64,000 bases of DNA from Apostichopus japonicus (Eukaryota > Echinodermata > Holothuroidea > Aspidochirotida > Stichopodidae): contig NC_092564.1 in the NCBI RefSeq assembly GCF_037975245.1, positions 8,839,984 through 8,903,983 of the forward strand. The letters are read 5' to 3'. The position numbers and the translations under genes are program-made. Numbering within the stretch: the stretch's first letter is position 1; the number at the start of each line of letters is the position of its first letter. Under the pieces are notes generated by a model. That model had not been told where the DNA came from. It searched no databases and saw only the letters and a list, made by a program, of their open reading frames with translations. Of this stretch, positions 5,131-62,984 are shown in pieces.

Positions 5131-5179
5131 GATAGACTAAGAGAAGATATCTCGTGCATAGCTATACAACTGTCAGAAG

Positions 5180-8100: not shown

Positions 8101-11100
8101 TTAACTGCTACCATTCGTCTATCTTTGTTACGTGGTGAAGAAATATGTGGGATGTACAGCATGCTATTTGATCATATTCCAGAATAAGAAACGTTGTAGT
8201 ATACATATTGCTAGACCTTATGAAAGTCTTATGGTCTGAGGATATAGTTCTGTATTTTTACTCTAACCAACCCTCTCATCTGTTCACCTACAATCACCCC
8301 CTTCCTTTTCTACTTCCCCATTCCCTTCCCCTTTCCCTCACACCCATCTCCCCTTCCGGATACATTTACAAGATTTCAAAACCTTTGCATGACCAGACTT
8401 GAATTTATCCCTTTAATTCCTCTGACAACTACCTTCCTATTTCGTTATTTTTTTCTCTTTTTCAATCGATAGAAAACATGCAGGACAAGCAGGATTTGCT
8501 ATCTGTCCGATATTTGTCGGCCACGGCATAGGAAAACTATTTCACTGTAAACCAGACATCTGGCATTATGGTAAGGTCTGTTTGGTACTGCAAGTACAGT
8601 TGAATTTATTAACAAACGTATGTCACCAGCTAAACCAGACTGGTCTTAATGTGGAGGTAGGATAGAAATAGGTAATAATATAGTTTTCCATGCCTATAGA
8701 AAACTGATATTCTTTTTGAAGCTTTATGATACTTTCTGTTAAAAGATTACGATGCCAAAATGACACTTATCAAACCCTCTTCTTTAGCATTGATTAAATA
8801 GTGGATATTTTATCATTTCAAAAAGAAGCTGTTTAATTATTAAAGGAAAATTTCTTTTTGATCAAATTATCATTGTAACATGGTGTTATGAAATATATCA
8901 ATGTGCACCTTCTCAATGCCAATTCTAGTCTGAAAATTTGCCTTCAACTTTCAATGCATTAGTATGAAGGTTATATGTTCAACTTCAAATGACAAATTCA
9001 TATACTAATTCAGATACTTTAGTTGTGGGAGAGCAATGGCATGCTTTGGCTAGACCGGTATTAGGACCAGTGACCATTAGTATACATGCAGAGGGGTAGG
9101 AAGCTTCCAAAAAGTGGGGGAGGGGCACAACATCAGAGGGGCACTTTCTCATTCCACAACCAACACTCGTTATGCTATAAACCGATACACACCAGCCATA
9201 CCACTTAAATATATATGATGTGTTAGTATGCTGTCAATACTATTTATTGAGATTGTTCATTGTTAACCATTCTACAAAAAGATATGGCATGCCATTTTAA
9301 AAATAGCATCTACAGACTAAAAATAAATAATTAACATACAATATTAAAATTAACAAAATATCCAAAAGACAGTTCTTCATCAAAGGGGCACATTTTATTT
9401 GCCAGTAGGGCACATTTGCTATTTTGGAAAAAAAGTGGGGGGGGCACGTTCCCCCCAGTGCCCCCCCCCAGCTCCTACCCCCTGTATAGATGCTATATTA
9501 AAGTTAATTAAAACCTGTTTTTCAGTTGCTGTAGTTGACAAACGACGATTGACGTTGCTTATGATAAAGTGCAACCTATAGGAAGTACCATAGAAGGTTT
9601 GACCTTAGGTCACTGGTTATCCTAGGTTGGGATCCCCTTTTAGTCCATTTAACCTGTTCCATTTTCTTATATCCAGTTTATATTTCTTTTACAATATATT
9701 TAAATTTCTTAGTGAGATAAGAGGAGGTTAAAGGAGGGGAGTATATGGTCAATACTTGTTTGAGTAAAGAGTTCTTGACTTTGGTTTTTTTTTCATTTTC
9801 AGCCAATAACTATCCTGAGGAAATGCACGAGGGTATGATATTTACGATAGAGCCAGTCATCTTAGAGTATCGAGATGATCCTCTAGAAGATGAGGATGGA
9901 TGGACTGTCTATTCAAAGAACTATGCAAGGTAAAGACTACAGTATGATAATCATCTACCACAGAAAAACCTGCTGGCTGCATCAGTGGCGTAACCAGCAT
10001 TCTATTGTTGGGGGGGGCAAGATTTTTCTTAAGGGGGGCAACCCTGTGATGGTTCATGGTAGGAATTACCAAGAAATATATGAGTGGCATCATTGGTCTC
10101 TGAAAATGCACATGGGTTGCTAGCGCTAGTTTTATAATGGTTATACAACCGGCCAAATTATTGGCGCTTATTCTGTAGGACGATATTGATCGACGGTCTC
10201 CGTAAGTGGGTATGATGAAGGCCCAATATGTGTAATATCTCGGTCTGATTACCATACCAAGTTCTGACCTTATATGAAGTATGAACATGAGCCCTGAGGT
10301 ATGAATACTTGTGATTAGAACTCGAAAAAATGTAAAAAAGAAGTATTTTTGAATACATCACTGGATTTCATTTGGGGGGGCATGACTGTAGCACAAAGCA
10401 AATTTTTTTTGGGAGGGGGGCATTGCCCCCCTGGCCCCCCTCTTTCTACGCCACTGGGCTGCATATTCTCACCAAAAATTGATACACAGCCCTGACAGAT
10501 ACACTTTCCATCTGATCTGTTTTTCATTCACTCATATAATTTTGGATGATGGGATGTCTGCGCAGTAGGATTATTATTGCATTATTATTATTATTATAAT
10601 ATACAGTTCACTCCAAGTTAAATTATTGCTGACTTTTATTTAAAGAAATAACAATTGTGAAAACGTTTCAAGCAACCTCTATTGCAAGTAAGAGAAGAGG
10701 ACCTGGTTTATATTACATACCTTTTCCAGACGGGTGTACATATGTTACATTTCTATTGTAGTTCATGATCAATTGCGAGGAACAGGGGAATAAACAAAAT
10801 TCCCAGGGATGTATTGATGCCTGGGGTAGTTTCTAGGGTTTGTTTTAATAGGCTTAAATGAACTTTACAGTACATAAGTGTATTATATGTTATTAATCGA
10901 CCGTAACCAGTGCTTAGCCTGTGCAAAGTATTTGCTCTTACCCAAAAAAAGTGTCAGGTTGCCACTTTTTCAACATGACATCATGAAAATTAATCGAGTT
11001 GTAACATTGGTTAACTGTAAGCTCTTGAGTCTAGCATTGGTTTGATTTCAGTTGAGATGGTCTTTTAAGCTATTTAGGTTATCATTGGTGTTCTGTTAAA

Positions 11101-14100
11101 GTTATTGAAGTTAAACCTTTTCAACATGGTTACAAGTTGTTAATTTGGTTATTACATGCAGCTGTTTGACCAACGCCACAGACTACTGGGTTTGTTCAGT
11201 ACATGACACTGTGTGACCATAGCCACAGACTACTGGGTTTGTTCAGTACATGACACTGTGTGACCATAGCCACAGACTACTGGGTTTGTTCAGTACATGA
11301 CACTGTGTGACCATAGCCACAGACTACTGGGTTTGTTCAGTACATGACACTGTGTGACCATAGCCACAGACTACTGGGTTTGTTCAGTACATGACACTGT
11401 GTGACCATAGCCACAGACTACTGGGTTTGTTCAGTACATGACACTGTGTGACCATAGCCACAGACTACTGGGTTTGTTCAGTACATGACACTGTGTGACC
11501 ATTGCTAAGCTTTGTCAGAAGTGAAACATTTTGATCTGCATTTGACTTGTTTGACCATTATTACAGCTTGTTATGTTTCTTTAATAGATGCAATGTTTTG
11601 ATTGTTGCTGCTGAAATATGTGCTCTACTCAACAAAACTCAATTTTAGCAATCTTGTGTTCATGGTGTTTTTTGTACTCATGTATGTTACTTTACAAACA
11701 ATGAATGTTTGTTGTCAGCTCTGGTAAGAGTGTATAATAGCTTTATTGTATGTTAACCTCTATCTTGCTCTGTTTAGAATGATACTGGCTTTATTGTATG
11801 TTAACCTCTAGCTTGCTCTGTTTAGAATGATACTGGATTTATTGTATGTTAACCTCTATCTTGCTCTGTTTAGAATGATACTGGCTTTATTGTATGTTAA
11901 CCTCTATCTTGCTCTGTTTAGAATGATACTGGCTTTATTGTATGTTAACCTCTATCTTGCTCTGTTAGTGTATCCTGGATTTATTGTATGTTAACCTCTA
12001 TCTTGCTCTGTTTAGAATGATACTGGCTTTATTGTATGTTAACCTCTATCTTGCTCTGTTTAGAATGATACTGGCTTTATTGTATGTTAACCTCTATCTT
12101 GCTCTGTTTAGAATGATACTGGCTTTATTGTATGTTAACCTCTATCTTGCTCTGTTTAGAATGATACTGGCTTTATTGTATGTTAACCTCTATCTTGCTC
12201 TGTTTAGAATGATACTGGCTTTATTGTATGTTAACCTCTATCTTGCTCTGTTAGAGTGTATCCTGGATTAATTGTATGTTAACCTCTATCTTGCTTTGTT
12301 AGAGTGTACACTGGCTTTATTGTATGTTGTACTCATGTATGTTACTTTACAAACAATGAATGTTTGTTGTCAGCTCTGGTAAGAGTGTATAATAGCTTTA
12401 TTGTATGTTAACCTCTATCTTGCTCTGTTTAGAATGATACTGGCTTTATTGTATGTTAACCTCTATCTTGCTCTGTTAGAGTGTATCCTGGATTAATTGT
12501 ATGTTAACCTCTATCTTGCTTTGTTAGAGTGTACACTGGCTTTATTGTATGTTGTACTCATGTATGTTACTTTACAAACAATGAATGTTTGTTGTCAGCT
12601 CTGGTAAGAGTGTATAATAGCTTTATTGTATGTTAACCTCTATCTTGCTCTGTTTAGAATGATACTGGCTTTATTGTATGTTAACCTCTATCTTGCTCTG
12701 TTAGTGTATCCTGGATTTATTGTATGTTAACCTCTATCTTGCTCTGTTTAGAATGATACTGGCTTTATTGTATGTTAACCTCTATCTTGCTCTGTTTAGA
12801 ATGATACTGGCTTTATTGTATGTTAACCTCTATCTTGCTCTGTTTAGAATGATACTGGCTTTATTGTATGTTAACCTCTATCTTGCTCTGTTTAGAATGA
12901 TACTGGCTTTATTGTATGTTAACCTCTATCTTGCTCTGTTTAGAATGATACTGGCTTTATTGTATGTTAACCTCTATCTTGCTCTGTTTAGAATGATACT
13001 GGCTTTATTGTATGTTAACCTCTATCTTGCTCTGTTAGAGTGTATCCTGGATTAATTGTATGTTAACCTCTATCTTGCTTTGTTAGAGTGTACACTGGCT
13101 TTATTGTATGTTGTACTCATGTATGTTACTTTACAAACAATGAATGTTTGTTGTCAGCTCTGGTAAGAGTGTATAATAGCTTTATTGTATGTTAACCTCT
13201 ATCTTGCTCTGTTTAGAATGATACTGGCTTTATTGTATGTTAACCTCTATCTTGCTCTGTTTAGAATGATACTGGATTTATTGTATGTTAACCTCTATCT
13301 TGCTCTGTTTAGAATGATACTGGCTTTATTGTATGTTAACCTCTATCTTGCTCTGTTTAGAATGATACTGGCTTTATTGTATGTTAACCTCTATCTTGCT
13401 CTGTTAGTGTATCCTGGCTTTATTGTATGTTAACCTCTATCTTGCTCTGTTTAGAATGATACTGACTTTATTGTATGTTAACCTCTATCTTGCTCTGTTA
13501 GAGTGTATCCTGGATTTATTGTATGTTAACCTCTATCTTGCTTTGTTAGAGTGTACACTGGCTTTATTGTATGTTGTACTCATGTATGTTACTTTACAAA
13601 CAATGAATGTTTGTTGTCAGCTCTGGTAAGAGTGTATAATAGCTTTATTGTATGTTAACCTCTATCTTGCTCTGTTTAGAATGATACTGGCTTTATTGTA
13701 TGTTAACCTCTATCTTGCTCTGTTTAGAATGATACTGGATTTATTGTATGTTAACCTCTATCTTGCTCTGTTTAGAATGATACTGGCTTTATTGTATGTT
13801 AACCTCTATCTTGCTCTGTTTAGAATGATACTGGCTTTATTGTATGTTAACCTCTATCTTGCTCTGTTTAGAATGATACTGGCTTTATTGTATGTTAACC
13901 TCTATCTTGCTCTGTTTAGAATGATACTGGCTTTATTGTATGTTAACCTCTATCTTGCTCTGTTTAGAATGATACTGGCTTTATTGTATGTTAACCTCTA
14001 TCTTGCTCTGTTAGAGTGTATCCTGGATTTATTGTATGTTAACCTCTATCTTGCTTTGTTAGAGTGTACACTGGCTTTATTGTATGTTAACCTCTATCTT

Positions 14101-14574
14101 GCTCTGGTAAGAGTGTACACTGGCTTTATTGTATGTTAACCTCTATCTTGCTCTGGTAAGAGTGTACACTGGCTCTATCTTGGGTGAGTTTTATTAACAA
14201 GTACTAGTATGTTAACCTCTCTGCAAAGAATACATTGGTCCAATCTGAGTGTTCAATTCTAGCTACTCATTCTCGCCCAATTGATATCAAACTTAACAAT
14301 TAATGAATTCTGATGTGGTATTTATTAAAAAAAAATATTAAAATAGAAATTTGGTCACTTGTTTTAATGAAATGCTTTCTGATAGAATAAATGTGTGTTA
14401 ATTCTTTTTTCTTTCAGGTCGGCTCAGTTTGAACACACAGTTCTCATCACAAACACCGGAGTAGAAGTCCTCACAGCTGGAGCCAACGAAACCTTCTTAA
14501 ATGTTACAACAGATAGCGAAGATCCAGAATCCGTTTTAGATGCGGAAGACCAAGAGTGGAAGTTTAGGCCTTGA
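5180..14574 (+). CDS. METAP1D: Methionine aminopeptidase 1D, mitochondrial
   Basis: Six coding exons (5180-5533, 6660-6851, 7500-7663, 8473-8570, 9803-9929, 14418-14574) join in frame to 363 codons, close to the vertebrate enzyme. All introns are GT..AG. The product removes the initiator methionine from proteins made in the mitochondrion. The first ~45 residues are basic and lack acidic residues early on, as expected for a targeting peptide. The M24 metallopeptidase fold follows: catalytic His163 (in VHGIPDSRP) and metal ligands Asp180 (NIDIT), Asp191 (HGDVSETF), His254 ([10 protein letters not shown]), Glu286 (FTIEP) and Glu317 (AQFEHT). All five ligands are intact, so the enzyme should be active. 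The start is the first ATG after an in-frame stop at 5159. Intron 4 carries one hAT-like element; intron 5 carries another plus two tandem-repeat blocks. Assignment to 1D rather than cytosolic MetAP1 rests on the presequence and on overall similarity. Confidence 0.95.
6883..6926. repeat. (GTAT)n/(GT)n microsatellite
   Basis: TGTGTGTATG units grading into five GTAT repeats, about 30 bp into METAP1D intron 2, just after the exon 2 splice donor. Confidence 0.8.
9089..9484. mobile_element. hAT-like MITE in METAP1D intron 4
   Basis: A 396-bp element with ends CAGAGGGGTAGGAAGC and CTCCTACCCCCTG, forming inverted repeats. The flanks are TATACATG (9081-9088) and TATAGATG (9485-9492), an 8-bp target duplication with one mismatch, so this is an older hAT-type insertion. 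G/C runs lie next to both ends and the middle is AT-rich. There is no coding capacity. Confidence 0.8.
9983..10456. mobile_element. hAT-like MITE next to METAP1D exon 5
   Basis: A 474-bp element with ends CAGTGGCGTAACC and CTACGCCACTG. A perfect 8-bp duplication GGCTGCAT lies at 9975-9982 and 10457-10464. It begins only 54 bp downstream of the METAP1D exon 5 donor. Short frames inside come from G/C runs and are not genes. Confidence 0.9.
11165..11503. repeat. 47-bp minisatellite
   Basis: Seven nearly identical 47-bp units with the core GCCACAGACTACTGGG, spaced exactly 47 bp, in METAP1D intron 5. The first unit and the last edge differ slightly. The near-identity implies recent expansion or homogenisation. 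Confidence 0.95.
11673..14190. repeat. 48-bp satellite with higher-order structure
   Basis: About 44 units of a 48-bp repeat (core TGTTAACCTCTATCTTGCTC) in METAP1D intron 5. Unit variants include ones ending TTTAGAATGATACTGG, TTAGAGTGTATCCTGG and TTAGAGTGTACACTGG. A different 68-bp linker (TGTACTCATG...TGTATAATAG) starts the block at 11673 and recurs at 12328, 12553, 13112 and 13575, dividing the array into higher-order blocks. Since 48 is a multiple of three, one frame stays open for long stretches, giving spurious 16-residue-periodic ORFs. Every standard unit carries a pyrimidine-rich tract ending in TTTAG. The linker carries CTGGTAAGAG, which resembles a splice donor. Confidence 0.95.
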
Positions 14575-16323: not shown

Positions 16324-16331
16324 GATCTATC

Positions 16332-16697
16332 CAAGGGCGTAGGAACCAGGGGGGCTGGGGGCGCCAGCCCCCAGTGAAAAATGTGGAGGGGCGGAAGTAT
16401 CATTCCGCCCCCCCCCGGTTCGCAAGTCAGAAAACCCCTTTTTCATTTTCAAATGAGAAAAAAATCTCATTTGGAGCACCAAATTGCATCCTAAGGCCAG
16501 GTGAAAATACAAAATTAAGTTTACAAATTGGAGTGGGTGTTGAAGTGTGCTATATTGCACCAAATTGCATCTGAGGCCACCTGGAAATGCAAAAAAATTC
16601 CAAAGGGGGAGGGGACACCCCCTCCCCTTAGACCCCTCCCCCAGGCCGGCCATCAGTCTTCAGCCCCCCCACTCAAAAGTACCTTCCTACGCCACTG
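16332..16697 (-). mobile_element. hAT-like MITE, family A, copy 2
   Basis: A 366-bp copy in reverse orientation, with ends CAAGGGCGTAGG and CTACGCCACTG. A perfect 8-bp duplication GATCTATC lies at 16324-16331 and 16698-16705. The interior matches the other family members, including the GATGCAATTTGGTG motifs. Confidence 0.93.
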
Positions 16698-18453: not shown

Positions 18454-18818
18454 CAGTGGCGTAGGAAGGTACTTTTGAGTGGGGGGCTGAAGACTGATGG
18501 CCAGCCAGGGGAGGGGTCTAAGGGGGAGGGGGTGTCCCCCTCCCCTTTGGAATCTTTTTGGCATTTCCAGGTGGCCTCAGATGCAATTTGGTGCAATGTA
18601 GCACACTTCAACCCACCCACTCCATTTTGTAAATAATTTTGCATTTTCACCTGGCCTTAGATGCAATTTGGTGCTCCAAATGAGATTTTTTTTCTCATTT
18701 GGAAATGAAAAAGGGGTTTTCTGACTTGCGAAGCGGGGGGCGGAATGATACTTCCGCCCCTCCATATTTTTCACTGGGGGGGGGGCTGGCGCCCCCAGCC
18801 CCGGTTTCTACGCCCTTG
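18454..18818 (+). mobile_element. hAT-like MITE, family A, copy 3
   Basis: A 365-bp copy with ends CAGTGGCGTAGG and CTACGCCCTTG. A perfect duplication TTATACTA lies at 18446-18453 and 18819-18826. The interior is nearly identical to the other copies, differing mainly in the length of G runs. Confidence 0.93.
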
Positions 18819-28900: not shown

Positions 28901-31663
28901 GACTATGATTTAAGTTACTCGGGATACATTTACGAACAGTGGCGTAGGAAGGTACTTTTGAGTGGGGGCGCTGAAGACTGATGGCCGGCCTGGGGGAGGG
29001 GTCTAAGGGGAGGGGGTGTCCCCCTCCCCTTTGGAATTGTTTGCATTTCCAGGTAGCCTCAGATGCAATTTGGTGCAATATAGCACACTTCAATACCCAC
29101 TCCATTTTGTAAACTTAATTTTGTATTTTCACCAGGCCTTAGATGCAATTTGGTGCTCCAAATGAGATTTTTATTCTCATTTGGAAATGAAAAAGGGGTT
29201 TTCTGACTTGCGAAGCGGGGGGGGGGGGGCGGAATGATACTTCCGCCCCTCCACATTTTTCACTGGGGGGGCTGGCGCCCCCAGCCCCCCGGTTCCTACG
29301 CCCTTGTTTACGAATGAATTGACTGCCGTTGGCATAGTTGATTGATAGACAGATTGATTGATTAATGATAAGAAATTAAGTTAAGTGTGCAAAACGTATC
29401 TCTATCGATATATCGATCTTTTATACAATCACTGAGTTGATTTTTTTTTATATATTCCTTGACAGCGATGTACAAGGTATGAAAACTTACGCCAAGAAAG
29501 ATGGCGATGATTGGATCCTGAATGGAAGCAAGGTATGATCATCGTAGTGTTAAAGTCAAATCAATACACCCGCTATAGTTGAGAGATTGGAATTGGGAAG
29601 AGAGAGGAGGGAAGTGTGTAAATGTCACTTCTGTCATAAACAAATTAGAAACTGTTTTTCCAACTTTGCTGTGTTACTGTATATAGCATATGGGTTTCTA
29701 CAATTAACTTAACCTGCAATATCAGACTTAGATGACACTGAGGGCACGATGCATATGAATATACAGTACGGGTTAACTTACATCATGTTCTATTTACGCA
29801 GGTGTTCATCAGCAATGGTTATCTCTCCAATGTGGTTATCGTTTGTGCAAAAACCAACCCAGATGCAAAGAAGGCTGCCCATGGATTATCGTTGTTCCTG
29901 GTCGAAGACGGTATGCCGGGATTCGCAAAGGGAAAACCTCTTGACAAAGTCGGTCAAAGGTCGACAGTAAGTGCATAAAGATTTCAGATGCATTTTAAGG
30001 ACGTTTAGAACGTGTCATAAGAATGAGGCTCAAAATCTGATATGCTAAAAACAAAACAAACAAAAAACAAACAAACAAACGTACAACATACTTTAAACAT
30101 ATTTTGTACAGTTTCAGAATATATGTGCACGTGATAGTAATAATGTTAGATATTTTCTTTTCTTTTTAGGACACCAATGAGTTATTCTTCGATGACGTAA
30201 GACTCCCCTCGTCTGCAGTTTTGGGTGGAGGCGCGCTGTTACACAAAGGGTTCTACCAACTAATGAAGCAGTTACCCCGTGAACGATTAATAGTTGGTAT
30301 CGTCAGCCAATCACATGCCGAGTACATGTTTGAAATCACCAGGCAGTATGTCAACAAAAGAATGGCTTTTGGCAAGAAGCTATCGAATTTGCAGGTATAT
30401 AATAATTATTTCTTTCTTGTACAATTGCATTTCCCTAATAGTAAGAGCAATGTCTTATGAGTCTTCCCACTCGGACTACCTCTAGTCCAGTGGGAGAGGT
30501 ATAACCACGTGCCAAATAAGGAAACTTAAATATTCACCTGTTTCTTTTGAGTAGCCATGAACTTCAGCCGCATGAGACTGGTATATAGTTAACTACCCAT
30601 CACGTAACATGTTATATCACGTGACAGATCAGCGGTGAAGAAGGGTTTGGGCGGGAGGAGGGGTTGAATGATGGTAAACATTGTCGTTGAGTTTTTTCCA
30701 CTTAATCATAGCTGTCGTAACTTTACAGTATGATATACGTTCATGACGTAACTTTACAGTATGATTTTAATCCCTCTCTTATTACGTGCAGACGATACAA
30801 CATCGCTTGGCAACCATGAAAACAGAACTCTGTGTTTCGCGCGCTTTTGTAGATAGATGTATTCAGCTGAGCGAAGAGAAGAGATTAGACTCATCAACTG
30901 CATCTATGTGTAAATACTGGTAAGTAACGAAGCAAAAATGTAAAACTATATTGCTAGAAAAAAAAGCGTGTTTCAGCATAATTTATCACGTCATCAAATA
31001 CACACATGCACATAAACTGTTCCTTTTCAATTGTGATGCACATATCACCACAATTGATACAAACTTGAGAAAGACGTCAATAAGCTTATAGCCTAACTCA
31101 TGTTTGTCATTAATAGTAGATGTGCTTAGTATAGCCTGTCTCAGTTGCACATGGATCGAAGCTGAATTCGTTTATCTAATCGACTAGAGAGATTATTGCG
31201 AATATTTGCGCGAAACTAAAAGCCAAGCTTGTACAGAACGTTACTCACTTAACTTGTTGTGACATGTTTTAAGAGAAAAACAAAAAGAAAGAAAAAAATA
31301 AAACTTGAATGCTGGGATACCCAACGATACTTGATTGTGGAATGGTCAATGGCGTCTGATGTTGTCACTGCTCAATCTATAGGTATTCACTATGCATGTT
31401 ACATATTCAGAATTGGATATAAATCTCTAAGAGACTAGTATATTTACTTAAGTCGTTTACTTTCTATTTTGTCCATATACAGGAGTTCTGACTTGTCTTG
31501 TAGAGTTGCGAATGAGTGCGTCCAACTTCACGGTGGGTGGGGCTACATGTGGGAGTATCCAATAGCGAGGGCCTTCGCTGATTGTCGTGTTTATCCAATA
31601 TATGCTGGAAGTAACGAGATAATGAGAGAACTTATCGCCAGGGATATTGTAAATCAAAAGTGA
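25956..31663 (+). CDS. ACADL: Long-chain acyl-CoA dehydrogenase-like, copy A
   Basis: Ten coding exons (25956-26050, 27015-27068, 27346-27474, 27937-28074, 28385-28549, 29466-29532, 29802-29966, 30170-30394, 30792-30919, 31483-31663) join in frame to 448 residues; the human enzyme is 430. The product is a mitochondrial FAD enzyme that introduces the trans-2 double bond into acyl-CoA and passes electrons to ETF. The first ~35 residues form a basic, hydroxyl-rich presequence (MTSLASKFLLKN). Family motifs are DIGTRDIFSEEHDIFRE, AMTEPGAGS, DWILNGSKVFISNGY, LQLHGGWGYMWEYP-like VQLHGGWGYMWEYP, and IYAGSNEIM. The catalytic Glu in LPRER is residue 309. The medium-chain-type Glu position is Ala (YAGS), as expected for long-chain and isovaleryl-type enzymes. 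The start is the first ATG that gives a presequence. A hAT MITE lies in intron 5. The closest relative is copy B downstream. Confidence 0.94.
28937..29306 (+). mobile_element. hAT-like MITE, family A, copy 4
   Basis: A 370-bp copy in ACADL-A intron 5, with the perfect 8-bp duplication TTTACGAA at 28929-28936 and 29307-29314. Ends are CAGTGGCGTAGG and CCTACGCCCTTG. Its position differs from the copy in the paralogue (intron 6), so the two inserted independently after the gene duplication. Confidence 0.93.
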
Positions 31664-38700: not shown

Positions 38701-41700
38701 ACCATTATACAGATGTGCGTAATATGTGCATGTTAATTTGTTACTGTTTACTCAGGCTCGTAAACCAGTACAAAGTCGTACAAAGCAAATAGGCTGATTC
38801 ATATCATATTGTATAGCGTGCGGAGTTGGCGACACACCATGTGGATTTGCTTTACCGCAAGTTTAAGCTCATATTTGGTGCCCCCAACAAGTAAAATAAT
38901 AATAAAATTCCTGGCTACGTGCTTGTATAGCTGCTTCAATCAGTTTTATATTTATTTCGAAGGGAGGCATATTTCATTACTTAGCTCAATGAAATTCACA
39001 AGAAACATATCCAAAAAAAAAGAAAAGAAAGAAAGACTTCCACACACTAACATGGTTTTTCTTTCTCGTTTGACTGTCGTAGGGGATACGCAAATTGTGC
39101 TGGTTCCTGCTGGGGAATGCACAGTGATATCGCTATGCCATATATTTCTGAATACGGCACACAGGAACAGATTGAGAAGTTTATACCAGAAATGACGGCG
39201 GGTAAAGTTATCGGTGCCTTGGCTATGACAGAACCATCTGCTGGCAGGTATAGCAATCGTTTGCCTGTCAATTCTCGTTAAATGTATTATTATAACAAGA
39301 ACAGAAACGTCTGGCAAACGCAACCAAAATTGGGCCAAAATTTGGGCATGATTTAAGCAATATCTTATACATTCATCTAACCCTAATTTCGTATGTTGGA
39401 AAACGATCATGACTTCATAAACTGCCAGTCCATTCACCCCCCCCCCCCCACACTTTACTGGTTTGGTATCGCCTTCATTCTCCCTTACCTTTCGGCTTTA
39501 CATATACTCATATTTACATAGCCTAACTAAATCAATTGCTACCATTTCTTAATCACACCATCTATCCCATCTTCGGGAATTGGGGGTATAGGTGGCTGGA
39601 AGGTGTTAAGAATATTACTACTTGTTACCGGGCATACCTAAATAAAAAAAAAGTAGAAAAAAATGTTCAGTTTCTCTGATTTAATGTAAATAATACTGTT
39701 TCCACTACTGGAGAGATTAATATTCCAAAATGAGATATATGTATGTATACTTAGTTTACATTATGTTTAAGCAAGTCCCAGTCACCTTACTGCTCATTTC
39801 TATGTTTTACTTTATTAGTTACTATATCTCTAAGTACAGCTTACCTTATAGTAACTTATAAAGTATGCACTGAACATACTTTTCCTTATCCTGGTTCTTA
39901 TTAATGTTCGAAATTAAAACTCCTGGAATCTGCCGATTTTTGAGTAAGTTTCAACTATTGGACCTCTTTAAACATTTCAGTGACCTTCAGGGCATCAAGA
40001 CATACGCTAAGAAAGACGGAGATGATTGGATACTCAATGGAAGCAAGGTATATGAATCTATTGAGGTCTGTCAGTTTAGCCATGTATATTCTAGAACAGT
40101 GGCGTAGGAAGGTACTTTTGAGTGGGGGGGGGGCTGAAGACTGATGGCCGGCCTGGGGGAGGGGTCTAAGGGGAGGGGGTGTCCCCCTCCCCTTTGGAAT
40201 TTTTTTGCATTTCCAGGTGGCCTCAGATGCAATTTGGTGCAATATAGCACACTTCAACACCCAATCCATTTTGTAAATAATTTTGCATTTTCACCTGGCC
40301 TTATAGATGCAATTTGGTGCTCCAAATGAGATTTTTTTCTCATTTGGAAATGAAAAAGGGGTTTTCTGACTCGCGGAGCGGGGGGCGGAATGATACTTCC
40401 GCCCCCATATTTTTCACTGGGGGGGGGGCTGGCGCCCCCAGCCCCCCGGTTCCTACGCCCTTGTTCTAGAATGTCAAATAATGGTCATCCACGTTCACAC
40501 TCAAAGTTTAAGGCATCCTCATTTTCACTCAACAAGACATGTAAACCGCGACAGCATGTCATTTTCGGACCACCAGTGTGCCACCGATGGGTAACTAGCA
40601 GCACGCCACCATCAGCAAGGGTGAGAAATAGGACGGCCCATGTTGGCCGCCAGTGTCGGTATCAGGTTGCAGTCGCCAAAGCTCATGTCAACTTGTACAG
40701 ATCTAGTGTATTGTTCCCAATGTATTGTTGTTACGTCAAGATAAATGTTCTTTAAATATTGTGAGCCTTGAAATGATAGCCATTTATGTGCCCATTATAT
40801 CAAAGTAATGTGCATTCTTTATAGATCTAACTCAGCATAGGGAAAGTTGGTTGCACATAATTAAAGTAGGACGTAGCAGCCTTATGGGATGCCGTTCCGG
40901 ACAGTTCTCTCTCACAATACTGTTAATAGGTGCATCGTCACTAGCACTGTACGATTCGGTGCTTGTGTTTGATTGATATCGCAAGACCAATGAGAAGTGC
41001 ATTTAGCACACCACGTGTCAAATGAATTGCTTTTCAGGAATTTCTCCACGTTACTTTTGTTAACCCTTCCATTGCATAGGTTTTCATCACTAATGGATAC
41101 TTGGCCGGTGTAACTATCGTTGTGGCTATTACAGACCTTGACACGAAGAAGAAAGCTCACGGAATCTCTCTCTTCTTGGTTGAAGATGGTATGCCCGGAT
41201 TTAATAAAGGAAAAATACTCGAGAAAATTGGTCAAAAGTCAACGGTAGGAATTTTATGTCATTCATTCAATTAGTTACATTAAATAGTGGGTGTTACGAA
41301 AAGGGCTTCGGGCAGTGGTGGGGAGGGGGAGGGGGTTTCTATAGCTCGTTTAACTTATTAAAGTGACTGGACTATATAGTCTAATACACATATTATTACC
41401 TCTGTTACTCAGAATCAGCACAAAAGACTAAACGTTTATGGCCAGAAATGATATGTTTACAATGTATTTCAATTGTATGCAAGGACAAATGATGTTGAAT
41501 GTCTTACAAGGGTGCTCTGCTGGGTTACTTATTGCTTTATCAGAACTATATTGAGAGAAAACCCAGCAGTGTAGATATCACGTGTTTACCTATAACCATT
41601 TCTAACCTGTTCTATCGAATGCTGCTTGCCCACTTGATCGATAACTATTAATATGCAATTCCACCCCGAAACTCGCTCTTCATAGAAAGCAACCGTTGGA

Positions 41701-43793
41701 TAAGCTATAGTTATTCTGTACATTATCATTCTATATTTTCCCCAGGATACCGCAGAGCTATTCTTTGATGATGTGCGCCTTCCAGCTTCAGCCCTTCTGG
41801 GCGGAGAGGCGTTCGTGAACAAAGGATTTTATCAACTTATGAAGCAACTACCACGAGAGAGGTTATTAGTGGCCGTTGCTGCTCAATCACATGCGGAGTA
41901 TGCGTTTGAAATCACCAGAGATTACATTCGAAAAAGGAAGGCATTTGGAAATTCATTATCGAAATTGCAGGTAATCTACAGACAGATTGAGTCAAATGAA
42001 AAGCCAAAATTTCGTAACAAAAAGTCAAAATTTCGAAAAGAAATAATGTTTGAGATAATATGTCAAAATCTGAGATTAAACAAATAAAAATTTCGAAAAA
42101 GAAATTGAATAAAATGAGAATACATTTTGAAAAACAAGTAGAAAGTTGGAGATAAAATAGTTTTGAAGAAAATAATGAAATTTTCAAAGTTCCATCTACG
42201 CCACCGTTTCATTTTCAAAACAAAAAAGAATGTGAAGAGAACCCCTACCCACACCCCAGTCAACCAAACCGGTTTTCCACATCCTTGCTTTTTGATAGCT
42301 TGGAACTCACTGACAGATTCGTTCATGACGTCATTATTACACGTTTGAATGTTATGTCAACATTTACCATCAGACGATACAACATAAAATGGCAGAGTTG
42401 AAGACAGAGATCTGTATCAGCCGTTCCTTCGTTGACAAATGTATTGAACTACAGACGGAAGGTATACTTGACTCTACGATGGGATCAATGAGTAAATATT
42501 GGTGAGTATAATGATACGAATTAGGACTGGGTGTATGAATACGGATGGGATCAATGAGTAAATATTGGTGAGTATAATGATACGAATAAGGACTGGGTGT
42601 ATGAATATACGGATGGGATGAATGAGTGAATATTGGTGAGTATAATGATATGAATAAGGATTGCATGGGGTATCAATACGGATGGGATCAATGAGTAAAT
42701 ATTGACGAATATAATCATAGGAACAAGGACTGGGGTATGGATACGGATGGGATCAATGAGTAAATATTGGTGAGTAAAATGATACGAATCAGGACTGGGT
42801 GTATGAATACGGATGGGATGAATGAGTAAATATTGGTGAGTATTATGATACGAATAAGGACTGGGGTATCAATACGGATGGGACCAAAGAGTAAATATTG
42901 GTGAGTATAATGATACGAATCAGGACTGGGTGTATGAATACGGATGGGATCAATGAGTAAATATTGGTGAGTAAAATGATACGAATAAGGACTGGGGTGT
43001 GGATACGGACGACCATAGCACACCCGTAGCTAGACAATTTGAGTTGGGGGGGGGTGCACCAGCAAGGAACACAATTTTCAAATCCGCTAAATTGTAAAGT
43101 TTTTCATACACATAGTTGCATGTGATATTAATGGTTGGGGAGGTGTTGTCAACATGCGAGGGTGGTGGGGGCTGAGGTGGGTGCAGTTCCTGCACTCGGC
43201 CTGGTTAACATAGTGCTTCACGGTATCCCGTCACTGAGGAAGGGAAGGCAATGTCTGCTTTACCAATTTTAGGAGATTCAATATAGATTAGTCTCTTTGA
43301 AGACAGAGATGTATTTCAGCCTTTCTTTGACAAAAATGTATCGCATAACAGACCTTAGAATGGAGATTTCACCGAATCATGGGATCATTGCGTAAATAGT
43401 AGCAAGCTATCTAGCTAAAGGGTTAAAGGGAAAGATGGGGTAAGATAAGGGAATCGGTATAACTATGGCGATATGTAACTATAGCATTATATGGCTGGGA
43501 ATGGATCAAGTGATGTTTCTCTAGTGTAGTAACCAAAAGCAGATAATGTTAGTAGATAAAGGAAGCTGACCTTATATTATATCTCATTCTCTTAGAAATT
43601 GTCCTTTTCTCACAGGAGTACGGATTTAGTGTGTAAAGTAGCCAATGAATGCCTTCAACTACACGGTGGCTGGGGTTACATGTGGGAATATCCAATTGCC
43701 AGGGCTTTTGCCGACAGTAGAGTTCTGCCAATTTATGCGGGAAGCAATGAAATTATGAAGGAGCTGATCGCTAGAGACATTATAGCTGAGTAG
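35319..43793 (+). CDS. ACADL: Long-chain acyl-CoA dehydrogenase-like, copy B
   Basis: Ten coding exons (35319-35407, 36567-36614, 37575-37706, 38508-38645, 39083-39247, 39981-40047, 41080-41244, 41746-41970, 42374-42501, 43616-43793) give 444 residues. All nine introns interrupt the protein at the same places and phases as in copy A, so the two arose by tandem duplication of a whole gene. The presequence begins MAARIPRLIFRGQNNLSRS, basic and without acidic residues. The catalytic Glu (LPRER) is residue 306. HGGWGYMWEYP and IYAGSNEIM are conserved. Differences from copy A include SCWGMHSDIAMPY for SCFPMHSDIVMPY, TEPSAGS for TEPGAGS, and a shorter C-terminus. No stop or frameshift is visible, so both copies look functional, perhaps with different chain-length preference (inference). 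The introns hold a hAT MITE, a hAT remnant, and the exon-9-derived minisatellite. Confidence 0.94.
35726..35799. repeat. (TA)n(TG)n microsatellite
   Basis: A compound AT then GT repeat in intron 1 of ACADL copy B. Confidence 0.85.
37010..37362 (+). mobile_element. hAT-like remnant, family B
   Basis: In intron 2 of ACADL copy B. It contains the family B core (37083-37119) and the following conserved stretch (TCTAGATCGCCGGAAAT). The likely ends, CAATGGCGGAGCTAGG and GCCCCCTGACTG, are poor inverted repeats. I find no target duplication, so it is probably degraded or rearranged and the borders are approximate. Confidence 0.6.
37840..38320. repeat. Degenerate GTCGAAATTTCG-type repeat, intron 3 of ACADL-B
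   Basis: Scattered GTCAAAATTTC, GTCGAAATT and TCGAAATTTGG words, like those at 20500-20850. The stretch is AT-rich and non-coding. Confidence 0.4.
40097..40463 (+). mobile_element. hAT-like MITE, family A, copy 5
   Basis: A 367-bp copy in intron 6 of ACADL copy B, 49 bp after the exon 6 donor. The perfect duplication TTCTAGAA (itself palindromic) lies at 40089-40096 and 40464-40471. Ends are CAGTGGCGTAGG and CCTACGCCCTTG. Confidence 0.93.
41985..42185. repeat. Degenerate GTCAAAATTTCG repeat, intron 8 of ACADL-B
   Basis: Repeated AAAGCCAAAATTTCG, AAAGTCAAAATTTCG and AAAAATTTCG words directly after the exon 8 donor. It belongs with the repeats at 20500-20850 and 37840-38320. Confidence 0.45.
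42470..43014. repeat. Minisatellite derived from ACADL-B exon 9 and its donor
   Basis: Units of about 65-70 bp. The first unit begins inside coding exon 9 (ATGGGATCAATGAGTAAATA at about 42478) and crosses the true donor (TTG|GTGAGTA at 42502). Seven further units and a partial last one follow in intron 9, ending near 43014. Each includes a copy of the last ~25 bp of the exon, then TTGGTGAGTA and spacer GATACGAATAAGGACTGG. One unit (near 42700) has lost the donor (TTGACGAATA); the other six decoy donors keep GGTGAGTA. Confidence 0.93.
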
Positions 43794-46655: not shown

Positions 46656-46781
46656 GTGCAATAGTGCAAATATTTCATGAGTTGACAGCTGGAATGCTCC
46701 ATTCAACGAGGCGCAGCCGAGTAACCGAGTTGAATGGAACAATTACATCTTTCAACGAATGAAATATTTGCACTATTGCAC
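46656..46781. repeat. Perfect 23-bp inverted repeat with inner hairpin
   Basis: The arms at 46656-46678 (GTGCAATAGTGCAAATATTT + CAT) and 46759-46781 are perfect reverse complements separated by 80 bp. Within the loop a second perfect 9-bp pair, CCATTCAAC (46699-46707) and GTTGAATGG (46729-46737), encloses GAGGCGCAGCCGAGTAACCGA. This nested foldback is probably part of an inverted-repeat transposon of unknown class, split by the MITE at 46796. Confidence 0.7.
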
Positions 46782-46795
46782 GAATGGAATCCATT

Positions 46796-47163
46796 CAAGG
46801 GCGTAGGAACCGGGGGGGCTGGGGGGGGGGGGGGGCGCCAGCCCCCCCAGTGAAAAATATGGGGGGGGGCGGAAGTATCGTTCCGCCCCCCGTTCCGCAA
46901 GTCAGAAAACCCATTTTTCATTTCCAAATGAGAAAAAAATCTCATTTGAAGCACCAATTGCATCTAAGGCCAGGTGAAAATGCAAAATTCTTTACAAAAT
47001 GGAGTGGGTGTTGAAGTGTGCTATATTGCATCTGAGGCCACCTGGAAATGCAAAAAAATTCCAAAGGGGAGGGGACACCCCCTCCCCTTAGACCCCTCCC
47101 CCAGGCAGCCATCAGTCTTCAGCCCCCCCCCCCCCCACTCAAAAGTACCTTCCTACGCCACTG
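46796..47163 (-). mobile_element. hAT-like MITE, family A, copy 6
   Basis: A 368-bp copy in reverse orientation, with the perfect duplication AATCCATT at 46788-46795 and 47164-47171. It sits 14 bp from the foldback arm at 46781. Confidence 0.93.
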
Positions 47164-50933: not shown

Positions 50934-51310
50934 TCAGTGCTAAATGTACGAGACACGGTGCCTTAGCCTTATGGAACCAGTCGGTATTCGGTGTGGTCTG
51001 TTTTTGTGCTAATTGTATGAGACACGGTGTCTTAGCCTTATGGAACCAGTCAGTATTTGATGTGATCTGTTTTTGTGCTAAATGTACGAGACATAGTGCC
51101 TTAGCCTGTTGGAACCAGTCGGTATTTGGTGCGGTCAGTTTTGTGCTAAATGTACGAGACACGGTGCCTTAGACAGTTGGAACCAGTCGGTATTCGGTGT
51201 GGTTTGTTTTTGTGCTTAATGTAAGAGACACGGTGCCTTAGCCTGTTGGAACCAGTCGGTATTTGGTGTGGTCTGTTTCGTGATAAATAAGAGACATTGT
51301 GCCTTAGTTT
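50934..51310. repeat. 69-bp minisatellite
   Basis: About five and a half units at 50937, 51006, 51075, 51143, 51212 and 51281 (truncated). The core is ACGAGACACGGTGCCTTAGC followed by GGAACCAGTCGGTATT. The 69-bp period is divisible by three, so frames stay open on both strands (for example a repeated WNQSVFG on the plus strand). These are by-products of the repeat. The array abuts the 5' end of the LINE. Confidence 0.9.
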
Positions 51311-53384: not shown

Positions 53385-55370
53385 ACAGAGTTAGAGACTG
53401 TCCCGAACAAAAAGAAAAAACAAAATGTGCCAATTGCTCAGGGACTCATGCCACCCTTTACAAAGGATGCCCAAAATTTAAAGAAGCTAAAACTGAAGCT
53501 AATAACAAACAACAAGAACAAAGAACCTATGCGAATGTAACCAAATCTACCCATAAAATTGAAATAAATAAAATCGCCACTGAAGATAAACTTAATATCG
53601 CAACCTTTGTAATTGAATTAGTACAATACACCTTCCAAAAAGCCGACATTAATATTAAATCCGACGACCTTGCCAGTTACGCCACCGTGTTAGCACTAAA
53701 ACACCTAAACTTAAATATCCCAGAAACTGTAATTCTGGAACGTCAACCTTCGTCAACGTCAACGTCAACCAACGTCAACCTGGAACGTCAACCTTCAATA
53801 TTTAGCCCTCCTCAATGACCTACATGACAAGCATACTCCCTCCTTCGGTCAAGTTCCTCCACCTAAACATCAACAGTATCCTTCAAAATTAAGCCTCCTA
53901 CTTAGTATATTCACCAACCACTCCCCGGATATCATTTTGTTAAACTAAATTAAATACAAATTCCCACCTTAGCATCCCTGGTTACCAAACTTTCAGACAC
54001 GATATCTCTCGCTCTATGGGAGGAGTACTTATTGCTGAAAAAACAACCTCAAAGCCACCTTCCCCAAACAGTCAAACAATTGAAATTGTACTCGAAAGAG
54101 ACAATAAACCTCTCCATATTATTAGCTATTAAAGTCCCCAAATGAGACCATATCCACAATAAAAAAAAATCTATTAAAATACAATAGTACTAGGAGATCT
54201 AAATGCCCACCACATCATTTTTGGTAGAACCAAAAATATCTGAAAAAGGCATATCCCTCTTAGAAATATGTGATAAACACAACTTAACAATAATTAACCA
54301 AAATACCAAAACTAGGATAAACCCAATAAACAATAATGCTGAACTACTTGACTACGCCATAACCTCAAACCACCTTGCAACTAAAACTCATTGGATTCAA
54401 ATCCTAGAAGATGACCTAATCAGTGACCAATTTCCACTCCTTTTTGAGCTAGACATAAACCTCAGTCGCATCCAAAATAACGAATTAACATATAATTAAA
54501 ATAAAACAGACTGGACATCATTTAAAAAGGAACTCGTAACAAATTACACTATCCCCAATTACCACAACAACAAGCTAAATTACATCGGCATATATTGTGA
54601 CAGCATTGCCCAACATATCTTCAATACCTTCAAAAACACCGCTCCTTAAAAACGAAACAGAAATCGAAAACTAAATAGGAATATTCTTACACTAATAAAC
54701 TCAGACGTCGCCTACATACAACCTATATGATCTCCCCAGATCCAACTCTATAAACCCAAATTAACCAACTTAAAAAACAAATAAATAGACAAATATCGGC
54801 GGTCGACCAAAACCGAGTCCAAAACAAATGCGATTCAATCATTAATATCAAAAACCCAAAACACTTTTGGAAAAATTTAAAAAATATCATAAACCTATTA
54901 CAACCCCAAGCACAGGTAATACAGACCAATGCCTTAGAGATAAAGTAGGTAACCTCATCACAAAAACTCAAGACCAAATAAAGCTTATTGAATTGTACTT
55001 GAAAACTATATTCAATATCTTAGATGGCCCCATACGATAACAGATTCCAACACGAAATAGACAGAACACCTATCTGTAATGCAACCAGCTTTATCCCCAA
55101 CTTCTAAGGATGTCTCAACAAAAACATCCCTCTAATCAAAGAAATAGATATAAACGATTGGTATAGTGCCACTAAATATGCAAAATGCCTCCTCCCCTGG
55201 TCTTGACAACATAAATGACCTAATGCTAAAAGATTCCCCTCCGTCGGCCTCCGATATTCATTAACTCTCATATTTTCCCATTATTTAACAAACTCCTTAG
55301 ACTTGGTTATTTCCCAACCCTATGGAAATCCGCCAAAATGATTTAATACCGAAACTAAATAAAGACACAC

Positions 55371-55543
55371 AAGGGACGAAATAACTGGGTTCGCATAGCA
55401 ATTTGCTACCCAAGAATTGCCAGTTGCTAATCAATATTACCTTTGATTAGCAAAAGATGCAGTACCTGCTAATGCTAATTGCTATTTCCAAGAATTGTCG
55501 AGCAATTATTGCTAATCAATTCTCTAAAACTATTTCGTCCCTT
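55371..55543. mobile_element. 173-bp inverted-repeat MITE nested in the LINE
   Basis: Ends are AAGGGACGAAATA and TATTTCGTCCCTT, perfect 13-bp inverted repeats. The flanking GACACAC (55364-55370 and 55544-55550) is a 7-bp direct repeat. It interrupts the reverse transcriptase region, which resumes directly after it. The interior is rich in GCTAAT/ATTAGC words and holds a perfect 9-bp hairpin, GCTAATCAA..TTGATTAGC. The superfamily is undecided. Confidence 0.85.
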
Positions 55544-57432
55544 GACACACCAAAATTCAAAACTATCGACCAATTAGTCTCCTACCAGCCTTAGGTAAGA
55601 TTTTCGAAAGAATTATAGATAGCCGCACCAGAACCCACCTATAGTAAAATAATCACTTTGCCCGTATCAATCAGGCTAATTCCGGGCACACAAATCTTCA
55701 ATAAACCAAACTTTCTCTCTTTCCGAAGAAATTCGCATCGGCTTCATAAAAAACATGATACCACTGCCCTCTTCCTTGATGCCGAAAAGGCGTTCGACAA
55801 AACTTGGCACAACGGCATAAGAATACTACTTAACTTAATCTACCCTCCAATTACACCAGACTTCTTTCCTCTTTCCTTAGTGAGCGCAATGCAAAAATAT
55901 GCTACAAAAACCAATACTCAAAACCTATTCCACTTCGTGCAGGTACTCTACAGGGCGCTGTTCTCAGCCCCCTTCCCTACACCCTATTTGTTAATGATTT
56001 GAACATCCCCCCTATCTAAATGCAACTATAGTCGGTACACTGACGATATAGCCATTTGGAGAACCAGTAAAAATATCTATATGACGGAACTAAATATTAA
56101 AAAAGCAATTACACATCTCGAAAATTGGTGCTTGATGTGGAGAACAAAAATATATCCCTCAAAATCTAACCTAGCCAATTTCTCCATAATAAACTCAAAA
56201 TACCATAACCATATTTCCAAAATTAATCTTTTCACCACCTCAAGCACTGCTACTCCTAATGCAACCTCCTCGGTACCACTTTCGATAGCAAATTACCGTT
56301 GAATCTACATTGTAACAGAACTGAAGGATGCTGCTGGTTCCAACTTAAATCCATTCAAATCCTCTCACACAAATATAACTTCCCTCCGAAAACAATTATC
56401 CAAATTTATAAATCCAAAGTAAAATGATTCTCAGTTACAGGAGCATCACCCTGCTTACCATCTCTAATCCCAATAAACAAATTTTAAACAGAATCCACAC
56501 CACAGCTTATTGACTCGCACTCAAAATCCCTACCTATATTGCTACTTTGTACGTTCTCCGTGCAGAAAAAAACAAAATCTACTTTCACCCGACTTGAAGA
56601 ATTCAAAACCAAGTTATACAAAAACAACCTCGAGAACGACCCTTTGATTGAAGACCTCCCCCTGAACTACAAAGTCGCAACTACTTACTACCCAAAAACC
56701 AAACCCTTTCTGTATTCACAATTGTTACTACTTAAAGTCTCATTTTAATTAAAAAAATCCTTTCCTAAATCGGTCTGGGCCCCTTATATATACAGAACAA
56801 AACAAACAACTCCAACAATGACCGATTGATTAAAACATAAAGTAGCAACCACTCCCTTACCAAACAGTAGAAAGTGCAACCACTCCCTACCCAAACAATA
56901 GAAACCACTCTGTCTCCATAATTCTCAGTACTTAGAAATTCCTCTCCTTTAGAAAACCCTCCCTAATTGGCTCTTCGACTCCGACCTCGGGTATATTATG
57001 GCTATCCTGTCCAATGTAAATATATAAGACTTCATTTACCAGCAATTCCCTGACTGAACATAGACAACTTTTCCAAGAAAACAAAGAAAAAAAAATTCTA
57101 TTCTATAAAAACAAACTTATTATCCCCCGTAGGACCTCTCGCTAGGTCGACCAGGGGTTAAACTCCTTTTGATTCGATATCAACAACAACAAAACAAAGC
57201 TTTTACTTGAATTAAAAAAAAATGTAACTAATTGCATTTATTTCATTTCATTTATTTATTTTTGTTCTATCTTAACATAAGTATGACATATGACATAGAA
57301 GGAGATAAGAAACAAAACTTGTGAAAGGAAGTGTACTAAAAAACCCTATAGGGCTTGTCGGGTAGTGACACTCCCTAAAAAACTTTACGTGGAAGACATC
57401 GTTATTAGATTTTGGTTTCATTTAATCGATAG

Positions 57433-61466: not shown

Positions 61467-62860
61467 ATGCTCTGTGGGGGGATCGAACCGAAGACATGGA
61501 GTTTGTCTGTGTCTCTCCAGTCCAGAGCACTACCAACTGCGCCACTAGAACTGTTGAGAAATAGTGCTCGTTTCTAATATTTAAACTTCAGAGTCCAGAA
61601 TGGAAGAAGGAAAAGAGCAGAAAATCAAAATGCTCTGTCTGGGGATCGAACCGGAGACATTGAGTTTGTCTGTGTCTCTCCAGTCCAGAGCACTACCAAC
61701 TGCGCCACTAGAACTGTTGAGAATTATTGCTCGTTTCTAATATTTAAACTTCAAAGTCCAGAATGGAAGAAGGAAAAGAGAAGAAAATTAAAATGCTCTG
61801 TCTGGGGATCGAACCGGAGACATGGAGTTTGTCTGTGTCTCTCCAGTCCAGAGCACTACCAACTGCGCCACTAGAACTGTTGAGACTTAGTGCTCGTTTC
61901 TAATATTTAAACTTCAAAGTCCAGAATGAAAGAAGGAAAAGAGCAGAAAATCAAAATGCACTGTCTGGGGATCGAACCAGAGACATGGAGTTTGCTGTCT
62001 CTCTCCAGTCCAGAGCACTACCAACTGCGCCACTAGAACTGTTAAGAATTAGTGCTCGTTTCTAATATTTAAACTTCAGAGTCCAGAATGGAAGAAGGAA
62101 AAGAGCAGAAAATCAAAATACTCTGTCTGGGGATCGAACCGGAGACATGGAGTTTGTCTGTGTCTCTCCAGTCCAGAGCACTACCAACTGCGCCACTAGA
62201 ACTGTTAAGAATTAGTGCTCGTTTCTAATATTTAAACTGCAAAGTCCAGAATGGAAGAAGGAAAAGAGAAGAAAATTAAAATGCTCTGTCTGGGGATCGA
62301 ACCGGAGACATGGAGTTTGTCTGTGTCTCTCCAGTCCAAAGCACTACCAACTGCGCCACTAGAACTGTTGAGAATTAGTGCTCGTTTCTAATATTTAAAC
62401 TGCAAAGTCCAGAATGGAAGAAGGAAAAGAGCAGAAAATCAAAATGCTCTGTCTGGGGATCGAACCGGAGACATTGAGTTTGTCTGTGTCTCTCCAGTCC
62501 AGAGCACTACCAACTGCGCCACTAGAACTGTTAAGAATTAGTGCTCGTTTCTATTATTTAAACTTCAAAGTCCAGAATGGAATCAGTAAAAAGAGCAAAA
62601 AATCAAAATGCTCTGTCTGGGGATCGAACCGGAGACATTGAGTTTGTCTGTGTCTCTCCAGTCCAGAGCACTACCAACTGCGCCACTAGAACTGTTGAGA
62701 ATTAGTGCTCGTTTTTGATATTTAAACTTCAGAACTCAGAATGGAAGAAGGAAAAGAACAGAAAATCAAAATGCTCTGTCTGGGGATCGAACCCGAGACA
62801 TGAAGTTTGTCTGTCTCTCTCCAGTCCAGAGCACTACCAACTGCGCCACTAGAACTGTTG
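61467..62860 (-). repeat. Array of nine tRNA-like units, ~163-bp period
   Basis: The B-box complement GGATCGAACC occurs near 61481, 61644, 61808, 61970, 62132, 62296, 62457, 62622 and 62786, spaced 161-165 bp. On the minus strand each unit reads: A box TGGCGCAGTTGGTAGTGC, a CTCT/AGAG stem, a ~20-nt variable segment, B box GGTTCGATCCC, then TTTT within about 15 bp (a Pol III-type stop). The spacer (AACTGTTGAGAATTAGTGCTC..) is also conserved. No acceptor stem forms. Diverged partial units flank both sides (about 61440 and 62940). Confidence 0.8.
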
Positions 62861-62984
62861 AAGTTAATACTTGTTTCTAATATTTAATCTTCACAACATT
62901 AGGAGGCAAATAAATAGAAAATCAAGTGCATCTTCTTGTGTTTGAACTCAAGACAAGGAGTTTGTCTCATTTTTTCTCAAAACA

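Follow-up and report, generated by a model that had tools for sequence, protein, structure and literature searches.

In the holothurian Apostichopus japonicus, an exon-intron boundary of a gene for long-chain acyl-CoA dehydrogenase (ACADL) has been repeated as a tandem array of eight units, the first of which sits on the authentic splice donor. The array lies in a 64,000-nucleotide stretch of contig NC_092564.1 (positions 8,839,984 to 8,903,983; hereafter the window, whose numbering is used throughout), which contains two tandem copies of the gene, A and B. It belongs to copy B. We favor, with a probability of roughly 0.75, the explanation that this is a donor-spanning minisatellite of the kind called "mirages" in lancelets, a by-product of slippage or unequal exchange that is spliced from its first donor and carries a mild mutational load. 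This type of array has already been described. New here are a decayed copy of the whole exon beside the array and a correction of the predicted outcome of decoy use, which is an immediate stop.

Both genes encode long-chain acyl-CoA dehydrogenase (LCAD). With the last three exons of copy B as the query, the top solved-structure match is 8w0t, a long-chain specific acyl-CoA dehydrogenase (E 7.4e-72), and by these matches the array-bearing gene is nearest to LCAD among the acyl-CoA dehydrogenases. Eight coding exons were placed in each copy, with GT at 7/7 donors and AG at 7/7 acceptors of exons 2-8, and exons 2-7 have the same lengths in A and B. In both copies similarity, not a splice site, fixed the outer boundary of exon 1, and no leader exon was placed. 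Joined, the exons give open frames of 397 (B) and 398 (A) residues, and 292 of 397 aligned residues are identical. The proportions of nonsynonymous and synonymous sites that differ between the copies (pN and pS) are 0.17 and 0.85, and the latter value means that synonymous divergence (dS) is saturated. The two copies therefore look like old, functional duplicates. An interspersed element with related open stretches of the GRRNRGG type, found on both strands (16326-16574, 18577-18807, 29139-29375, 40254-40484 and 46763-47014), has one copy inside each ACADL gene.

The exon in question is the penultimate coding exon of copy B (42374-42501; this and all exons, units and the exon copy described below are on the forward strand). 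It is 128 nucleotides long, ends with ...MGSMSKY followed by TG, and was placed by its homology to LCAD and to copy A and by the open joined frame. Its donor GT is at 42502-42503, and the next exon, the last of copy B (43616-43793, including the stop codon; placed by homology and the joined frame), joins to it in frame as TG|G AGT. A sequence-only reading of this DNA had named the junction exon 9/intron 9. The junction is real; the number 9 is unconfirmed, the exon being the seventh of eight placed.

Tandem Repeats Finder reports the array at 42478-43009 with a period of 66, 8.0 copies, 87% matches and a score of 823; a 131-bp dimer period outscores the monomer slightly (842). Unit 1 (42478-42543; repeat finding, unit alignment and joined frame) consists of the final 24 nucleotides of the exon, the donor GTGAGTATA and a spacer, so that the array spans the real exon-intron boundary. 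The coding part of the repeat, put at about 25 bp by the sequence-only reading, thus measures 24 nucleotides. The remaining seven units are all intronic, at 42544-42611, 42612-42680, 42681-42745, 42746-42811, 42812-42876, 42877-42942 and 42943-43009 for units 2 to 8. Six of them retain a strong GTGAGT donor, giving intact decoys after 42567 (unit 2), 42635 (unit 3), 42769 (unit 5), 42835 (unit 6), 42900 (unit 7) and 42966 (unit 8), spread over 465 nucleotides after the authentic donor. Unit 4 has AC where GT is expected and has lost its donor. Units 2, 4, 5 and 8 were characterized by unit alignment, U1 pairing and splice simulation. Successive units are spaced by 66, 68, 69, 65, 66, 65 and 66 nucleotides, and any two of the eight are 83-97% identical. 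The frame and the homology thus bear out what had been read from the letters, namely an array with the true exon end as unit one, six decoys among seven further units, and variable unit length.

Within the window, the repeat was found only here. TATTGGTGAGTA occurs seven times in the window, always inside the array, and in none of 100 dinucleotide shuffles. GGTGAGTA is absent outside the array from the stretches counted, 4009 nucleotides of the A locus and 5273 nucleotides of the B locus, and a search of the whole window for the spacer pattern with up to 3 mismatches returned the eight array units and no further matches. The counterpart exon of copy A (30792-30919; placed by homology, shuffle comparisons and the joined frame) has neither an array nor an exon copy adjoining it. 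At its junction, where the donor is GTAAGT, no repeat was found, the best downstream score (23) staying below the highest of 100 shuffles (26). This agrees with the earlier statement that copy A lacks the array, from which it had been argued that the array arose after the duplication. We also consider this probable: with no trace of the array in A, saturated synonymous sites between A and B and units still 83-97% alike, it is unlikely that the array predates the split, although a loss from A is conceivable, and it is probably the younger of the two events.

To gauge donor strength, pairing with the 5' end of U1 small nuclear RNA was calculated, with pseudouridine treated as U. The predicted pairing energy is -11.1 kcal/mol for units 1, 2, 3, 6 and 7 and -10.8 kcal/mol for units 5 and 8; unit 4 does not pair. 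None of the other donors placed in copy B pairs more strongly than -8.1 kcal/mol (the exon 4 donor was taken two bases off), and the same junction in copy A gives -10.7 kcal/mol. By this prediction the decoys are as good, or nearly as good, as the authentic donor.

What would follow from the use of a decoy differs from what had been proposed, which was that repeated GSMSKYW-like segments would be gained or the frame shifted, depending on unit length. The array-bearing intron is of phase 2 (TG|G), and read-through past the authentic donor produces TGG TGA. The same stop therefore results from every decoy, regardless of unit length. Simulation of all seven downstream ends (the six intact decoys and the dead donor of unit 4) placed the stop after residue 339 of 397, immediately after ...MSKYW, in 7/7 cases. 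Depending on which of the six intact decoys is used, 62, 130, 264, 330, 395 or 461 nucleotides would separate the stop from the last junction further downstream; the usual distance rule for nonsense-mediated decay is 50-55 nucleotides. Extra GSMSKYW-like segments could arise only by way of a cassette running from an AG within the array to a later donor. Hypothetical pieces of this sort number 77, and 9 of them are open and a multiple of 3 (six of 9 nucleotides, two of 42 and one of 60). The pyrimidine fraction in the 20 nucleotides before the array AGs, however, is at most 0.45, whereas the seven acceptors placed in copy B have 0.65-0.80. A further idea, redundancy, in which spare donors would stand in for a damaged first donor, was rejected on the ground of the immediate stop: given the intervening letters as they are now, TGG TGA follows whichever spare is used.

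The variation among units was compared between their parts. Relative to the consensus, the seven intronic units carry 5 substitutions in the 24 exon-derived columns and 17 in the 36 spacer columns. The donor 9-mer, which overlaps the exon part by 3 columns, carries 3 substitutions, all in unit 4; this number is matched or undercut by 28 of 58 nine-column windows, so that across the seven intronic units the donor varies no less than other stretches do. Each of the five exon-part substitutions, placed in unit 1, would alter the protein: there is a TGA together with one missense change in unit 3, a TGA in unit 6 and two missense changes in unit 7. Unit 1 itself has none, which fits coding selection on this unit. 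No two of the eight units are identical; units 3, 4 and others carry private changes, and unit 5 has one variant in common with unit 7 and another in common with unit 8. This sharing fits exchange between units or recurrent mutation.

A second duplication was found in the same intron. About 0.9 kb downstream, at 43244-43410, the entire penultimate exon of copy B recurs in decayed form, together with the sequence around its acceptor and donor. Against the whole exon this copy scores 59, compared with at most 36 in 500 shuffles, and under permissive scoring 109, compared with at most 61 in 300. At the protein level there are two weak matches, each with E 0.071. The copy is closer to the exon of B than to that of A (59 vs 22, the latter score being reached by 31 of 500 shuffles) and bears ATGGGATCA of copy B, which suggests that it arose in B after these letters did. 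In the intron of copy A no exon copy was found, the scores of 16 and 18 being within those of the shuffles. We rejected the idea of a duplicated alternative exon: the copy has stops, insertions or deletions, and, in the alignment to the exon, GC in place of the donor GT. An origin of the array spacer from the surroundings of this copy is likewise unsupported (score 12 vs a shuffle mean of 14.5).

To place these two events in context, 16 exons, 14 donor junctions and 16 acceptor junctions of both genes were compared with their flanks on both sides, up to 1.5 kb for exons and up to 1.2 kb for junctions, in 92 comparisons with 100 shuffles each; the boundaries were one base off at some exons. Only the decayed copy and the donor array exceeded the shuffle maximum, and both belong to the penultimate exon of copy B. 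That the sole array-bearing exon is also the sole one with a decayed copy suggests, from one case, a local duplication hot spot.

Arrays of this type are known from lancelets. Mirages, minisatellite-like tandem duplications of exon-intron boundaries, are described for the Adh3, globin and troponin C genes (PMC3087553, PMC3902484), and similar imperfect repeats for PGBD5 (PMC3902484). Their units are 10-160 bp long (given as 10-72, 60, 108 and 150-160 bp) and many copies carry splice signals; BflGb6 has 6 units on one haplotype and 3 on the other, and the Adh3 repeats are reported to be somatically unstable (PMC3087553, PMC3902484). Globin reverse-transcription PCR together with Adh3 data suggest that such arrays leave splicing undisturbed (PMC3087553, PMC3902484). 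The array of ACADL-B has in common with these cases (BflGb6, BflGb9, Adh3, troponin C and PGBD5) that its repeats run across an exon-intron boundary; its spacings of 65-69 nucleotides fall inside the reported range, and as in the mirages many, not all, units keep splice signals, GT being present in 6 of 7 intronic units. It differs in the gene affected and in having eight donor-side units plus the decayed exon copy in the same intron. We call it mirage-like rather than a proven member. Among the literature matches listed, no title was judged closer than the lancelet papers, and no search by name for a published ACADL array was made.

Two other systems are more distantly comparable. Variable internal tandem repeats in human segmental-duplication genes are likewise minisatellites that tell gene duplicates apart, and those at exon-intron boundaries may, according to that report, form new introns (PMC2812944). 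These are recent primate duplicates with transcript evidence, whereas ACADL A and B are old and known from their sequence. Intron gain by tandem genomic duplication likewise copies sequence with splice signals (PMC4974935), but there a new intron results, whereas ACADL-B has gained none, the array-bearing intron having the same position and phase in A and B.

On the favored explanation, the split of A and B would have been followed by a tandem duplication of the exon in B, decay of that copy, and then growth of the array from unit 1. The array may have started with a slip by about 66 bp, made between short matches (TACG) at its two ends; slippage or unequal exchange would then have lengthened it, in part by two units at a time. 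The higher-scoring dimer period and the unit 5 variants common to units 7 and 8 fit such exchange between units. The spliceosome would use the first donor, and the array would be a by-product, nearly neutral within the intron yet a mutational load, because copying unit 3 or 6 over unit 1 brings a stop, unit 7 two missense changes and unit 4 a dead donor. Some of the data weigh against this explanation. When unit 4 is excluded, the donor 9-mer carries 0 substitutions, compared with 13 in the 36 spacer columns and 5 in the 24 exon-part columns, and this could hint that the donors have been kept. Further, the first donor is predicted to pair with U1 no more strongly than the donors of units 2, 3, 6 and 7 do, and among equal strong donors the intron-proximal one can be favored. 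Across eight related units, this test of decoy conservation is weak and mixed.

If the decoys took a share of splicing, the early stop would leave the mRNA open to nonsense-mediated decay and the number of units would tune the output of copy B. The equal or nearly equal U1 pairing of the decoys, a stop 62-461 nucleotides before the last junction and hence beyond the usual distance rule, and donors unchanged in six intronic units all speak for this. Set against them are the lost donor of unit 4, the finding that over the seven intronic units the donor is no less variable than other stretches, and the published account that arrays of such kind leave splicing undisturbed (PMC3087553, PMC3902484). 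We regard this idea as possible but unsupported, and as unlikely. An extension of it, to which we give less credence, is that a hot spot has acted at least twice in B, making the exon copy and then the array, and that unit number sets the share of immediate-stop transcripts as a heritable, perhaps somatically variable, dial of mitochondrial enzyme dose. The array might instead supply new exons or introns, with part of it becoming exonized in the way that an intron-gain model for lancelet globins proposes (PMC3087553). The 9 of 77 pieces that are open and multiples of 3 would permit this, but no array AG is preceded by a pyrimidine tract and, as noted above, the array-bearing intron has its counterpart in A at an identical position and phase, so that none has been gained; we judge it very improbable. 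Least probable of all is that the assembler multiplied one unit or miscounted the units. Repeats are error-prone, and two versions of the lancelet PGBD5 sequence differ in copy number (2 or 7, 3 or 6; PMC3902484); in the present array, however, the eight units are all distinct, with private changes in units 3, 4 and others.

Several other features of the window were recorded. A Peptidase_M24 gene is represented by open stretches at 5162-8665 (Pfam E 3.4e-19, the best stretch near 6642-6860); its product is probably a METAP1D-type methionine aminopeptidase of mitochondria. An ATGT microsatellite of 10.5 copies (6885-6926) falls in an open stretch that continues a Peptidase_M24 exon, and so probably lies just past the end of that exon. 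A large 48-bp minisatellite of about 2.4 kb occupies 11718-14178, with a 47-bp array directly before it (11153-11502), and a 69-bp array of 5.4 copies at 50937-51307 is largely open, giving a segment of 23 residues that recurs along it. The stretch 54239-56001 is probably a retroelement remnant, with weak matches to an endonuclease (E 0.00016) and a reverse transcriptase (E 0.0002) that in both cases stay under the Pfam cut-off scores. In a 163-bp array of 8.8 copies (61467-62893), letters resembling tRNA A and B boxes were noted by eye and were unconfirmed by ARAGORN and Rfam; no RNA gene was found anywhere in the window by Rfam at gathering scores or by ARAGORN with the bacterial code.

The decayed whole-exon copy adjoining the array may link mirages to exon duplication. 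The array is also a natural test of donor choice, in which one authentic donor is followed by six that are predicted to be equal or nearly equal and that would all lead to the same early stop, with the neighboring copy A serving as an internal control without an array. Clean splicing would mean that donor strength counts for less than position and exon definition, and leaky splicing would turn the number of repeats into a control of dose.
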